From Bacteroidaceae bacterium (lineage in GTDB: Bacteria > Bacteroidota > Bacteroidia > Bacteroidales > Bacteroidaceae): a stretch of 64,000 nt of DNA. Location of the stretch: positions 1 through 64,000 of the forward strand of contig JAFZZI010000016.1 in NCBI GenBank assembly GCA_017615835.1. Direction: 5' to 3'. How positions within the stretch are numbered: the first letter of the stretch is position 1; each line of letters opens with the position of its first letter. The notes beneath the pieces are model-generated. The model worked only from the letters and a program-made list of their open reading frames with translations. It was not told where the DNA came from and did not search any database. This document shows, piece by piece, positions 630-6,114 of the stretch. The position numbers were made by a program, and so were the translations under genes.

Positions 630-2078
630 ATGAAGAAAAAAAGAAGTATCGTTATTCTTATTGCTGCAGTATGCGCGATTTGTGCGTTGGGATTCTTAGC
701 CAGTACATTTTTTGATTGGCCTGTTGACACCTCAGGTACAAGGGGTGATATTGCCAAGTCAAACCGCTTCTCACGTAAGTCTGTGAACGGGGGAATGAGT
801 AATATGCAGGAACTTCTGGCCAATGACGAAGAGTTCAAGAACAACATGGTTGTCGCCTACACCATTATGTCTTCGCGTGCAAGTCAGTTTGATGCTCTTG
901 TGAACATGTCTGTCGATGCAGCAGGCGACATTAAGGATTTTGACAAGATTCTTGACGACATGAAGACCATTAAGCCCATGCTCAAGAACGTCTGCTCTTC
1001 TATGGAGAGTGCGGGAAAAGACTTGGATGCCGCGTTAAGTGGAGAGAACAGAGCAGACTTGAACCAGAACACAAACAATGCAGCACTGGCATACACTGCC
1101 CTTCAGAAACAGAATGAACTCGCAGACAGATTCATTAATGCTGTTGACCAGTATGTGCAGGGGAATTCTGCGGATGACCGGCTCAAACTGGTCCGTGATG
1201 AATGGATTGAGTATCAGATTATGACGGCAGCCTTGAATAATGACCCCAAGTCTTCTGACAAACTGAAAGAACAGGGTTATCTGCTCACGTCTGACAAGGC
1301 TGTGACTGCCTTGAATTCTTTCGATCCTTCTTCACAGGCTGCGATTGTGAGCAGTTATTATCTGGATAATTACCTGGGCTTTAACCCGAACGGACTGCTG
1401 TCAGAAGTTAATATGCCTGGACTGCTCAACGAAATCAACCAGAACGGGCTGCTCAACGAAACCAACCGGAACGGGTTGCTCAACGAAACCAACCAGAACG
1501 GGTTGCTCAACGAAATCAACCAGAACGGGTTGCTCAACGAAATCAACCAGAACGGGCTGCTCAACGAAACCAACCAGAACGGACTGCTCAACGAAACTAA
1601 CCAGAACGGGTTGCTCAACGAAATCAACCAGAACGGGCTGCTCAACGAAACTAACCAGAACGGACTCCTCAACGAGATCAACCAGAACGGGCTGCTCAAC
1701 GAAACCAACCAGAACGGACTCCTCAACGAGATCAACCAGAATGGGCTCCTCAACGAGATCAACCAGAATGGGCTCCTCAACGAGATCAACCAGAATGGAC
1801 TCCTCAACGAGATCAACCAGAATGGACTCCTCAACGAGATCAACCAGAATGGGCTCCTCAACGAGATCAACCAGAACGGGCTCCTCAACTTTGATGCTCC
1901 AACCCTTATGAATTCTTTCCACGACGCCGTCATTACCATTAACCACTCTGGAGGTCCCGGAAGAGTTATTAATCAGAATGTTGACGGATATTTGAGTAAT
2001 ACTATTTCTGCAACAATCGCATCATTGACAGCTGATGGCCAGTCTGCTGTTGTCAACCATGTTCCGTTTAGAGAGTGA
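630..2078 (+). CDS. Membrane-anchored protein with 19 nonapeptide repeats
   Basis: I do not recognise a family. The 482-residue product starts with a basic MKKKR and a hydrophobic segment (about residues 5-27) with no lipobox, so it is an N-terminal membrane anchor or signal peptide that exports the rest. Residues ~50-250 look helical and polar. From residue 255 to about 420 there are 19 copies of a nine-residue unit, consensus GLLNEINQN with an I/T alternation; the first two copies are degenerate. A 60-residue tail follows. The stop TGA overlaps the GTG start of the next gene (GTGA at 2075-2078), so the two are almost certainly co-translated. The regular unit with two leucines per repeat suggests a solenoid or adhesive stalk, but that is inference. 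The partner genes encode an exported metalloprotease with a barrel-like region and an intramembrane protease. Confidence 0.8.
   Translation: MKKKRSIVILIAAVCAICALGFLASTFFDWPVDTSGTRGDIAKSNRFSRKSVNGGMSNMQELLANDEEFKNNMVVAYTIMSSRASQFDALVNMSVDAAGDIKDFDKILDDMKTIKPMLKNVCSSMESAGKDLDAALSGENRADLNQNTNNAALAYTALQKQNELADRFINAVDQYVQGNSADDRLKLVRDEWIEYQIMTAALNNDPKSSDKLKEQGYLLTSDKAVTALNSFDPSSQAAIVSSYYLDNYLGFNPNGLLSEVNMPGLLNEINQNGLLNETNRNGLLNETNQNGLLNEINQNGLLNEINQNGLLNETNQNGLLNETNQNGLLNEINQNGLLNETNQNGLLNEINQNGLLNETNQNGLLNEINQNGLLNEINQNGLLNEINQNGLLNEINQNGLLNEINQNGLLNEINQNGLLNFDAPTLMNSFHDAVITINHSGGPGRVINQNVDGYLSNTISATIASLTADGQSAVVNHVPFRE
1392..1889 (+). repeat. In-frame 27-bp tandem repeat array (19 copies)
   Basis: The unit GLLNEINQN begins at 1392 and recurs every 27 bp up to 1878; the last copy is partial, ending GLLN. 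Copies 13-18 (from 1716) differ only at two synonymous third positions (GGG/GGA and AAT/AAC), while copies 1-2 are diverged at the protein level. This pattern points to recent expansion at the 3' side. Because 27 is a multiple of three, the antisense frames are also open here, which explains long but meaningless minus-strand reading frames. Confidence 0.95.
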
Positions 2079-5077
2079 GTAAATCATTTCTATACCGTCT
2101 GTTTATTCTGCTCCCTCTGACTGCTTTTTCTGCCAGCTCAGAGGGACAGACTTATTATCAGTATAAGACTGATGAGGCTAGGATTGTGTTTTTTGACAAA
2201 AACCTTTCCCGGTATATTCCTCACATGACACGCATGTTTCAGCGTGGAAAGACTCTTCATGAACAGATTTGGACCACAGATTCCCTTTATGTTCCCGAAG
2301 CTCCGCTTCTTATGGTAACTGACTGGGAAGACGACGGTAACGGAGGAGCAACTCCTCTACCCCATACTCTTGTTCAGATTGGCATGGCACCATTGTCCAT
2401 GTCGTATTATATAAATCCGTCAATTGAACGTTACCAGCAGTTGTTCGCCCATGAATACACGCATCTTGTAATGGGTGACAAATATAATCGTCGCGATTTG
2501 GCATGGCGCAGGTTTTTCGGCACGAAAGTAGGCACAGAGAACGCACATCCGATTTCGGCTGTCTGGAGTTATCTCAGCGTTCCGCGATGGTATGCTCCGC
2601 GTTGGTTTCACGAGGGAATAGCATGCTTTTTGGAAACATGGCTCGGCGGCGGAGTGGGACGCGCGCTTGGCGGCTATGACGAGATGTATTTTCGCAGTAT
2701 CATAGCAGGTAAGCATGAGCTATTCTCTGTAGTCGGCCTTGAAACAGAAGGAACAACACTTGACTTCCAGGTCGGAGCCAATGCCTACCTGTACGGAACC
2801 AGATTCGTCAACTATCTTGCTTCTGAATATGGCTATGACAAACTGATACGGTTTTACAACAGGACATCTGACAGTAAGACATTCTTCGGAAATCAGTTCA
2901 AGAATGTCTATGGCATGCCTCTTAGAAAGGTATGGAATGAATGGAAACTTGATGAAAAGAAACATCAGGAGGAGAATCTTTCATCAGTTGCTGAATATCC
3001 ATTGACTGAAACCGTTTATCTTACAAAGGAACCTCTTGGCTCAGTTTCACCGTTCGTATATGATTCAGGCACCGGTAAGGCTTACGCCGCAATGAGTGCA
3101 CCCGGACAATTTGCGAATATTACTGAAGTGGACATTAATACCCTGAAACAGAGAAAGGTTACTGATTTCTATGGTGTCCAGTTGTATAATCCGTCGTTCG
3201 TTGCCCTGGACGCCAACTCCAAGAGGCTGATCTACACTGTAAACAATGCCAAAATGCGCGGTCTGGAGGTATATGACCTGAATAAAAGAAAGGTTGTCAA
3301 GAAACTTAAGCTTCAGCGCGTCAACAATATTGTTTATGATAATGCCACTGACCGTCTGTACGGGTTGTTCTCAAACGGAGGGACACAGTCTCTGGTACGT
3401 TATGACAGGAATATTGAGAATCCGGAAATCATCTATGCTTTTCCGTTCGGAGTAAGTGTTTTTGACATCGATATAAGTCATGACGGGAAACTACTCTCAG
3501 TGACTACACAAGGGGACAACGGTGAGCATTCACTGCTTCTTTTCCATGTGGAGGATCTGGAACAGGCCCTTTTCAAGTATGACAAACTGGTTACATGGGA
3601 TGACAGCAACCTGGGGCAGTTCCGTTTTTCTCTTGACGACCGTTATCTGATAGGCAGTTCATACTATACAGGAGTGTCGAATCTTTGGCAGATAGAGATA
3701 GAAAGCGGGGATATGCAGATGCTCAGTAATACTGACATCGGATTGTTTGCACCGCTGGAGATAAGCCCTGGAAAACTTATAGCACTTCAGTTTGAACGTG
3801 ACGGAATGAGGCCGGTATCACTGGAGCGCAAGGTGGTCAATGATGCCAATGCGATTGAACTGTACGGCCAGAAGGCCTATGAAAAAAATCAGGAAGAACT
3901 GGAATCGGTCGGCATCATCAGGAAACCGTTCAATGAGATTGCTTTTGGTCAGGTTTACGACAGCATCGTACCTTACAAGGTGCTCAAGGAGATGCATTTT
4001 GCCGGAGCATATCCCGATATAACAGGTTTTACGGACAGAAAATCATGGAATAATGTGACTCCGGTTCTCGGATACCGTCTCATTTTCAATGATCCCGTGG
4101 GCCTAACCAGTCTGAAACTCGGAATAGGCATATCTCCCTGGAGCAACAATGACTGGAAAAACCGGTTCCATATTGACGCCCAGTTCAAATACTATTTCTG
4201 GACTTTTACCGCCGCCTGGAACCATACTGATTTCTATGATCTGGCCGGTCCTATGCGAACCAGCCGCAAGGGATATATGGCGAGCGTATCCTATGACCAT
4301 ACCAACACTCTTTTCGTTCCATATACGCGCGATTGGGGTTTCTCTGTAGGTGCTTATGGAGATATGGATGCCTTGCCGCTTTATCAGGAAATCGGCGTGG
4401 ATGAAGGTATAAAATCCATGCAGACAATTGCAGCGTACGCAAAAATATCCAAGGCAAGAGCTTCACTTGGTGCTGTGATGAAAGAACAGGGATACATGCT
4501 GGGAATACAAGGTTACGGTTATCTGGCAGGTGGTACTTTCTATCCGTCATGTGAGGCAACAGCTGATTTCGGATTTCTGGTACCGGGTATAAGAAACACC
4601 TCTTTCTGGTTACGTTCCTCTGCCGGACATTCTTTCGGAGATGAAGAGTCGGCCTTCGGAAAGACTTACTTCGGGGGGTTCAGGAATAACCGCATTGATA
4701 ACAGAAATTCATTCCAGTACAGGACGGTAAGTGCCATGCCGGGTGCGAATATTGATGCCATACCGGCCCACTCTTTTGTCAAATCGATGGCTGAACTCAA
4801 CCTGAAGCCCTTACGTTTCAATGATTTCGGAGCGTTGTTCTTCTATCCGACATGGGTTCAGTGTTCACTGTTCGGCACAGTTCTCTCTACCTGGAACTCC
4901 GGGAACAGACATGATATGTTTTACAGTGCAGGAATCCAGCTGACAACTGAACTGGTATTCCTGAACTATCTCAAGACAACGCTTTCCATCGGATACGGCC
5001 ATCTGTTTGCTCCTCAAGGCTTCCAGCTGGACAACCGTAACGGCAATGAATTCATGATTTCCTTAAAACTGCTGTAA
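2075..5077 (+). CDS. Secreted HExxH metalloprotease with propeller-like middle and C-terminal barrel-like region
   Basis: This 1000-residue protein has an N-terminal signal peptide (about residues 1-24). HEYTH at 126-130 is followed by WFHEG (Glu180) about 50 residues later, the spacing of a gluzincin-type zinc site: two His in HExxH plus a downstream Glu. Residues ~300-620 are rich in short beta repeats resembling a TolB-like propeller. From about 670 to the end the sequence is aromatic and glycine-rich with alternating strands, as in an outer-membrane beta barrel, so the protein may sit in the outer membrane with its protease domain in the periplasm or outside. The start is GTG at 2075, overlapping the upstream stop by 4 nt; the downstream gene overlaps its stop by 1 nt. 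Barrel and propeller calls are by eye. The substrate is unknown. Confidence 0.75.
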   Translation: MSKSFLYRLFILLPLTAFSASSEGQTYYQYKTDEARIVFFDKNLSRYIPHMTRMFQRGKTLHEQIWTTDSLYVPEAPLLMVTDWEDDGNGGATPLPHTLVQIGMAPLSMSYYINPSIERYQQLFAHEYTHLVMGDKYNRRDLAWRRFFGTKVGTENAHPISAVWSYLSVPRWYAPRWFHEGIACFLETWLGGGVGRALGGYDEMYFRSIIAGKHELFSVVGLETEGTTLDFQVGANAYLYGTRFVNYLASEYGYDKLIRFYNRTSDSKTFFGNQFKNVYGMPLRKVWNEWKLDEKKHQEENLSSVAEYPLTETVYLTKEPLGSVSPFVYDSGTGKAYAAMSAPGQFANITEVDINTLKQRKVTDFYGVQLYNPSFVALDANSKRLIYTVNNAKMRGLEVYDLNKRKVVKKLKLQRVNNIVYDNATDRLYGLFSNGGTQSLVRYDRNIENPEIIYAFPFGVSVFDIDISHDGKLLSVTTQGDNGEHSLLLFHVEDLEQALFKYDKLVTWDDSNLGQFRFSLDDRYLIGSSYYTGVSNLWQIEIESGDMQMLSNTDIGLFAPLEISPGKLIALQFERDGMRPVSLERKVVNDANAIELYGQKAYEKNQEELESVGIIRKPFNEIAFGQVYDSIVPYKVLKEMHFAGAYPDITGFTDRKSWNNVTPVLGYRLIFNDPVGLTSLKLGIGISPWSNNDWKNRFHIDAQFKYYFWTFTAAWNHTDFYDLAGPMRTSRKGYMASVSYDHTNTLFVPYTRDWGFSVGAYGDMDALPLYQEIGVDEGIKSMQTIAAYAKISKARASLGAVMKEQGYMLGIQGYGYLAGGTFYPSCEATADFGFLVPGIRNTSFWLRSSAGHSFGDEESAFGKTYFGGFRNNRIDNRNSFQYRTVSAMPGANIDAIPAHSFVKSMAELNLKPLRFNDFGALFFYPTWVQCSLFGTVLSTWNSGNRHDMFYSAGIQLTTELVFLNYLKTTLSIGYGHLFAPQGFQLDNRNGNEFMISLKLL

Positions 5078-6114
5078 TGTCATACGTAGCCGCTCTGTTA
5101 CCTGTAGCCGTATACATTATTGTGGTATACAAGTTGGACAGTTTCTCGCTTGTGAGCGTCAAGAGTCTGATTTTCCTGGTGTCGTCCGGGATTGCCGCAG
5201 CTCTTGTCTGTTTCGGACTATTCTCTCTTACAGGAAGAATCATGCCGGAGAAGATATCCGATTATTTCAATCCAATAATGGAGGAGGTGGTTAAAGGTAT
5301 TCCTCTGTTTTATCTTGCGCGCCAGAAAAAAACCGTATTCTTTATAGATAGCGTCATTTGCGGCGCAGCATTGGGAGGCGGTTTTTCTATCCTTGAGAAT
5401 ATCTTTTACCTTGTTCTTGGTGAACAGTTCGGAATAGGGACCGTCCTGTTCAGGGGACTGGAAGTTGCACTCATTCACATGGGTTGCAGTGCTGTAATCT
5501 CAGTTGCACTTATGTTCTCTGTCCGAATTGCAGAACGTTTCAAGTCCGGTCTTTCTGTAAAAAAAGGCGACACTGTCATGGCAGTCTTTCTGCTGATTGT
5601 AGCTCCGTCTGTTCATGTGCTGCATAACAGTCTGCATGCAGAACCCATAAAACAATTCATAATAGTATTCGGCATATTGGCAGTACTGCTGATCTGGTTA
5701 TATCAGTATGACGTCGATATGATACACCGTTGGCTTGACAGAGGTCTGGATAAACAGGTCAGTTTTCTGATGTCAGTCAAAGAAGGGCAGTTGGGGAACA
5801 CCAAAACCGGCAAATACCTGCTGTCCGTCAAGGAGAACTTTCCTCAGGATGTCTTTTTTGACATTATTTGCTACGTCCAATTGTATGTGGAGTTGTCAGT
5901 AGCAGCCAAGAGCCGCTTCATGATGAGAGAGACGGGAATGAGTCTCCCTCTGAACGAGTCAGACAAGGAATTATACCTTTCTCAATATGCCGAGTTCAAG
6001 AGTCTTGAGAGAAATCTGGGTAAAACTGCAAAAATGACTATTGCGCCAATAGTCAAGTTCTATCCTGCCGACTCAAAATCACTTGACGATCTCCTTGAGG
6101 AGTGTCGCAAATAA
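5077..6114 (+). CDS. PrsW-family intramembrane metalloprotease
   Basis: This 345-residue multi-pass membrane protein carries the PrsW/CAAX-protease-like motif set: MEEVVKG (Glu69-Glu70), GGFSILEN (Glu107), His134 in a membrane helix and HVLHN (His180, His183). About seven hydrophobic segments lie in the first 220 residues. A soluble C-terminal domain (220-345) follows that is not part of the usual PrsW core. PrsW in Bacillus cleaves a membrane-anchored anti-sigma factor; no anti-sigma factor is seen here. The membrane-anchored repeat protein two genes upstream is the obvious candidate substrate (inference). The ATG overlaps the upstream TAA by one base. The gene converges on the next minus-strand gene with a 3-bp gap and no visible terminator. 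Confidence 0.82.
   Translation: MSYVAALLPVAVYIIVVYKLDSFSLVSVKSLIFLVSSGIAAALVCFGLFSLTGRIMPEKISDYFNPIMEEVVKGIPLFYLARQKKTVFFIDSVICGAALGGGFSILENIFYLVLGEQFGIGTVLFRGLEVALIHMGCSAVISVALMFSVRIAERFKSGLSVKKGDTVMAVFLLIVAPSVHVLHNSLHAEPIKQFIIVFGILAVLLIWLYQYDVDMIHRWLDRGLDKQVSFLMSVKEGQLGNTKTGKYLLSVKENFPQDVFFDIICYVQLYVELSVAAKSRFMMRETGMSLPLNESDKELYLSQYAEFKSLERNLGKTAKMTIAPIVKFYPADSKSLDDLLEECRK

Follow-up and report, generated by a model that had tools for sequence, protein, structure and literature searches.

Three overlapping genes near the start of the stretch analysed here (the window, 64,000 nucleotides of a Bacteroidaceae genome) encode a membrane-anchored repeat protein, a secreted metalloprotease with a propeller and a predicted barrel, and an extended PrsW-type intramembrane protease. 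We consider this unit, at a probability of roughly 0.45, to be the core of a regulated-proteolysis module of Bacteroidota whose repeat protein would serve both as sensor and as substrate. The reading draws on the linkage of the genes, on naturally fused genes, on a motif shared with putative anti-sigma proteins, on conserved catalytic residues and on predicted folds.

Architecture of the three-gene unit

The first gene, g1 (630..2078, 482 aa; homologues aligned in A6), overlaps the second, g2 (2075..5077, 1000 aa, GTG start), by 4 nt, and g2 overlaps the third, g3 (5077..6114, 345 aa), by 1 nt; all lie on the plus strand, as does every feature described below unless stated otherwise. The three overlapping genes of the original prediction proved real, with unchanged coordinates. 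The window begins at a contig end, and its positions 38-328 presumably represent the end of a pyruvate oxidoreductase gene, which they resemble. On the minus strand, the repeat array is crossed by two long ORFs of 189 and 181 aa (1370-1946), and antisense ORFs longer than these hid g1 or PrsW in some relatives. No regulator candidate was seen near the unit in the window; a site-2 protease match (PF02163) is present in the window's genome.

In the structure model, g1 opens with a membrane helix (aa 4-27, 639..710), followed by a low-confidence linker with the juxtamembrane motif GDIAK (aa 39-43, 744..758) and by a helical bundle with pLDDT mostly above 90 (aa 58-248, 801..1373). A tandem array of 17.3 copies of a 27-nt unit, NQNGLLNE[IT] (1422..1889), forms a low-confidence insert between this bundle and two weakly conserved tail helices (aa 424-439 and 451-467, 1899..2030). 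The membrane anchoring predicted for g1 held in the window, where the model has the helix, but in five g1 proteins of other lineages a lipobox-like site replaces the plain helix, and what is conserved in g1 is therefore not the helix itself. A match of g1 to DUF1118 (PF06549; 31.7 bits, cut-off 22.5) was rejected; its best stretch, aa 369-416, lies inside the repeats, and it was found in only 1 of 63 g1 proteins, among whose Pfam matches there was no toxin family.

The second protein carries an HEYTH zinc-binding motif (aa 126-130, 2450..2464) and, at E180 (2612..2614), a proposed third zinc ligand, a role that we take over from the gluzincin motif. H126, E127, H130 and E180 were invariant in alignments of 42 and 22 rows, which confirmed that the metalloprotease active site is kept in relatives; the match of the window protein to Peptidase MA_2 (PF13485) stayed at 23 bits, under the cut-off of 32.4. 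The propeller-like middle that had been proposed for g2 was borne out by the fold test, which identified a TolB-like propeller (aa 310-589, 3002..3841). Compared with TolB, g2 adds the N-terminal metalloprotease and a C-terminal part modelled as a beta-barrel (aa 641-1000, 3995..5074). Sixteen long strands were counted for this part in the g2 model, and scores against the Omp85 superfamily (PF19143, Omp85_2) were 16.8 bits for the window and 20.4 for locus L066, under the cut-off of 23.1. Given the predicted barrel, g2 would be an outer-membrane protein whose protease and propeller face the periplasm.

The third protein matched the PrsW family (PF13367) with 50.5 bits against a cut-off of 23.5, and E69, E70, K73, E107, H134 and H180 were invariant in 34 rows, so that the catalytic residues expected of PrsW are conserved here too; we take the EExxK, E and two-H motifs to be the conserved motifs of that family. 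Against the PrsW equivalog NF033739 it scored only 17.9 bits, far under the cut-off of 225. The hallmark of this PrsW subfamily is an extra C-terminal domain that begins at about aa 216 (5722..6111). A natural in-frame fusion of PrsW to g2 (L152:8957-12979, 1341 aa) has the g2 signal-type segment directly after this domain. Signal peptidase could therefore still part PrsW and g2, and, provided that the segment works as a signal, the extra domain would be cytoplasmic.

Linkage of the genes among relatives

Among 61 relatives examined, g1, g2 and PrsW occurred together in 7 of the 37 genomes of the genus, the window's included (in G004 and G031 the three genes sit on two contigs). A genome of another family, G048, also has them, g2 and PrsW having been found by search and g1 by reading. 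Across 393 genomes of the order, 18 had g2, at E values of 1e-40 or better, and 24 had the extended PrsW, in one case recognised by a fragment next to a contig end. Every one of the 18 g2-bearing genomes also carries the extended PrsW, whereas chance alone would predict about one, and g1 adjoins g2 or PrsW in 17 of them; in the remaining one, G384, g2 lies at a contig end. At the level of the phylum, g2-like proteins were found in 30 of 395 genomes. Ten of the 20 loci fetched from these had no PrsW or g1 match nearby; g2-like proteins therefore occur in other contexts too. The g2-like proteins of L182, L185 and L186 are longer than g2 (1211-1218 aa) and have similar neighbours in all three loci, with no PrsW or g1 match near them.

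A search of named genomes confirmed 321 relatives of g2, of which the best 80 were used. The unit was expected to be conserved as neighbours in related genomes, and 63 of these best 80 loci indeed have g1, g2 and PrsW directly in this order (57, plus 6 whose PrsW had been hidden by an ORF on the opposite strand). In four of the 63 (L076, L104, L114 and L126) the contig holds no more of g1 than its C-terminal end. In 48 of the 64 cases measured, g2 overlaps PrsW by exactly 1 nt. The other 17 loci comprise three whose PrsW lies at another place in the locus, the PrsW::g2 fusion, four with no recognised g1 upstream of g2 (L082, L108, L149 and L141, g2 being broken in L141), two with g1 and g2 and no PrsW seen in the available stretch (L139 and L151), six that are truncated where the contig ends, and L112, which lacks an intact g2. 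An AraC gene takes the place of g1 upstream of g2 in L149. L082 and L108 have intact g2 and PrsW, and L108 also has a divergent membrane AraC-like gene. In L153 the extended PrsW has none of its partners on its contig. The named isolates Prevotella communis E15-14 and Xylanibacter ruminicola D31d carry the unit.

Regulatory neighbours and a membrane-side motif

The original prediction had set the unit apart from known PrsW circuits because no sigma/anti-sigma pair was nearby; this distinction failed for the family and held only for the gut clade of the window. Immediately upstream of g1, nine of the 18 order genomes have a gene for an ECF sigma factor together with a putative anti-sigma gene (L055, L056, L061-L064, L067, L068 and L072), a pair that would probably form a stress-signalling switch, and in two more such a pair stands beside the extended PrsW (L161 in G384 and L158 in G321), which brings the count of genomes with the pair beside g1 or the extended PrsW to 11 of 18. 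Sigma70_r2 and r4 were over their cut-offs in the three sigma proteins tested. The putative anti-sigmas are so labelled by place and topology, as single-pass proteins after an ECF sigma gene, and none of the seven tested separately reached the cut-off of any Pfam family. A sigma gene is also present in 7 of the 20 fetched phylum loci.

The ORFs of the window gave no ECF sigma or membrane anti-sigma match, and its genome gave no anti-sigma match. The seven genus genomes had no anti-sigma match better than E 0.08, that one (G005) spanning 31 positions. A profile search of L073-L152 likewise found no sigma/anti-sigma pair, with one ECF-like gene 7.7 kb from g2 (L094). In the g2 tree (midpoint root, quick method, context labels assigned by reading), the window falls inside a 22-row clade without sigma that adjoins four rows whose contexts are of the sigma, STAS, Rsb-type and LytTR kinds. 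The missing pair is best read as a loss, since the pair is present in 11 of the 18 order genomes; the simplest account is that it was lost in the gut stem and that AraC regulators were recruited in some branches.

Genes of STAS, HATPase and SpoIIE type stand in other loci; these were profile-tested in L055 only, and the same names were read from the sequence in L060, L066, L069, L070 and others. Two short proteins beside the extended PrsW in genomes without g2 (L157:1516-2082 and L159:1690-2256) match the anti-sigma profile with 113-117 bits and carry a GTM motif, with just 26 residues ahead of the membrane helix and no adjoining sigma gene. We presume a relation to TIR for the proteins adjoining a repeat protein and g2 in L180:2443-10632, from the way they start, and to Cas9 for the start of a 1414-aa ORF a few genes from the unit in L061:275-4519.

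Fused genes join part of the repeat protein to an anti-sigma-like part. In L174, L175 and L179 the anti-sigma profile matches residues 1-147 of one protein and the g1 profile matches about residues 107-173 of it, after which the protein continues as 8-9-residue repeats. The g1 match takes in roughly the first 60 of the 252 positions of the profile, the helix included, and the helical bundle is missing. Natural fusions tie the g1 segment and repeats to an anti-sigma-like part, and, in L152, PrsW to g2.

A motif, G[TSA][FIMLV], was present 6-32 residues past the membrane helix in 16 of the 17 anti-sigma-type proteins encoded next to these genes, ten of them having it at exactly 16 residues and L172 lacking it. 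Among 5000 shuffled ectodomain sets a mean of 1.3 and a maximum of 6 of 17 had the motif, and windows farther out from the membrane had it in 4, 0 and 1 of 17; the pattern was framed post hoc, with the sequences already viewed. The shared Gly does not amount to 17 independent events, because the anti-sigma-type proteins are homologues. In a 12-row alignment of such proteins (14-37% identity to the first row) this Gly is among three invariant columns.

The corresponding motif of g1 sits 10-15 residues after the helix or lipid anchor. G[DN][IV][AGS]K is found in all 63 rows of A6, whose rows were pre-sorted with a similar motif, one candidate, L139 (GDIGR), being dropped; G[TSA][IVFM] is found in 26 of 26 g1 proteins of other lineages. 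The g1 proteins of the gut clade have Asp or Asn where the others have Thr, Ser or Ala, and GDIAK of the window thus matches the anti-sigma motif in place and not in every letter. These patterns suggest that PrsW may recognise or cut both kinds of protein at the same site, around the shared Gly; the Gly may instead serve folding. The proposal that g1 is the protease substrate is favoured by the motif common to g1 and the putative anti-sigmas and by the fused proteins, both of which are circumstantial.

We thus propose that g1 would be anchored in the inner membrane or by a lipid, its bundle and long repeat loop exposed to the periplasm, and that g2 would trim it upon a signal. The next cut, by the extended PrsW, would fall close to the membrane, at the Gly-based site that g1 has in common with the anti-sigma-type proteins. 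In a putatively older form, the same cut would fall in an anti-sigma, separate or joined to the g1 repeats, and would free the ECF sigma; the clade of the window may have kept the module after losing or swapping this sigma switch. Because the sigma/anti-sigma pair is gone there, the output would be the g1 ectodomain released from the membrane, a regulator encoded away from the unit, or a message via the cytoplasmic domain of PrsW.

DegS/RseP-type sigma-E systems also work by two cuts, a periplasmic one followed by an intramembrane cut of the anti-sigma; the protease families of the proposed module differ from theirs, and the DegS/RseP type has no repeat protein. The literature found on PrsW concerns anti-sigmas of Bacillus and Clostridioides and toxin release (PMC3498285, PMC5358783, PMC3482391). 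The anti-sigma of the PrsW-RsiW-SigW system of Bacillus subtilis is destroyed by regulated proteolysis (PMC3498285, PMC5358783), and the present unit resembles that system in its PrsW-family protease and, in many relatives, in an ECF sigma with a single-pass putative anti-sigma. It differs in the extra PrsW domain, in the barrel-bearing metalloprotease, in the hypervariable repeat protein, in the absence of the sigma pair from the window and in the low score of the window's PrsW against the NCBIfam equivalog. For polymorphic toxins, PrsW has been proposed to process exported proteins with constant and variable parts (PMC3482391). A processing protease for such a protein is the common point; there PrsW is fused to toxin domains, whereas here it is a separate gene, with sigma genes in relatives. 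No published work on this unit was found in the PrsW literature, of which coverage was partial, and the unit is filed as a so far undescribed variant of PrsW-based regulated proteolysis.

Variability of the repeat protein and alternative readings

The C-part of g1 is hypervariable and its N-part conserved. Tandem or paired paralogues share 93% of the N-part and 44% of the C-part in G048, and 94% versus 36% in L147; species pairs with an N-part identity of 60-70% have a median C-part identity of 0.24. Four tandem g1 paralogues stand ahead of g2 in L056:3333-8555, with N-parts 56-64% and C-parts 21-32% identical. This contrast of the two parts, together with the patchy presence within the genus (7 of 37 genomes), would also suit a g1 that is displayed on the surface or in the envelope and is driven to diversify by phages, predators or the host, with the proteases maturing or turning over g1 and any sigma system merely regulating it. 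We hold this reading to be unlikely, as the similar repeats that follow an anti-sigma-like membrane helix argue for the periplasm, and the shared motif also speaks against it.

The only substrate of PrsW could instead be a membrane regulator, either an anti-sigma or an AraC protein, of which g1 and g2 would be co-regulated targets. Extended PrsW genes do stand by a sigma/putative anti-sigma pair with g1 and g2 absent beside them (L154, L155 and L158), and a membrane AraC-type gene, called by reading, adjoins the unit in 18 of the best 80 loci. We consider this rather unlikely, since g1, g2 and PrsW persist together without either regulator, in the window as elsewhere, and since PrsW and g2 are fused in one locus and commonly overlap by 1 nt.

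The arrays themselves were searched for periods of 4-20 in 73 g1 proteins, a set that includes five C-terminal fragments; 47 had a significant tandem array and 26 had none. The unit changes between nearly all species and is nearly constant inside one genome: NQNGLLNEI in the window, AATNKDGL[LV] in L074, NNTPGL in L075, EIVGKN in L090, ENLGASAR in L137 and GGAVNGF in L151, with up to about 26 copies per array. In G004 (C6/C138) and G031 (C24/C78) the contigs are broken within the g1 array, and because assemblies break there, draft genomes probably show arrays shorter than they are.

Adjacent units in 24 arrays differed by 0.36 per synonymous and 0.048 per non-synonymous site (pN/pS 0.13), and neutral arrays put through the same filter gave 0.63-0.67 when young. 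Finding arrays by their amino acids lowers this ratio (to 0.22 for neutral arrays at pS 0.34), and neutral arrays were hardly ever detected past a pS of about 0.35. The arrays of L090, L134, L135, L143 and L151 have pS of 0.48-0.75 and pN of 0-0.10, where neutral ones are rarely detected, and therefore point to selection on the repeat unit.

On such grounds g1 could be a multi-copy precursor, its array being cut by g2 and PrsW into species-specific oligopeptides for a linked regulator. The many near-constant, species-specific copies, the synonymous bias of several arrays in a range where a neutral array is almost never detectable, and the transcription regulators linked in many relatives would fit this. 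It is nonetheless quite improbable in our judgement: more than a third of the g1 proteins (26 of 73) have no significant array, no receptor was seen, the way arrays are detected biases pN/pS down, and a structural repeat would show equal constraint.

The boldest reading, which we regard as distinctly speculative, would make the array a species-specific peptide code, its identical short units being cut out of the membrane-anchored precursor by a dedicated outer-membrane protease and PrsW, with the same membrane-side cut switching an ECF sigma or membrane regulator. If true, this code would be a signalling or self-recognition system of Bacteroidota, rewritten between species and fixed per genome.

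For the regulated-proteolysis module as such, the segment shared by g1 and the anti-sigma-type proteins suggests which substrate, and which cut site in it, could be put to the test. The repeats are its fastest-changing part, yet their unit is fixed per genome, which raises the question of what gets recognised. Across the phylum, an extended PrsW is tied to a protease that seems designed for the outer rather than the inner membrane, and also to a repeat protein with a membrane-side segment found in anti-sigma-like proteins too.
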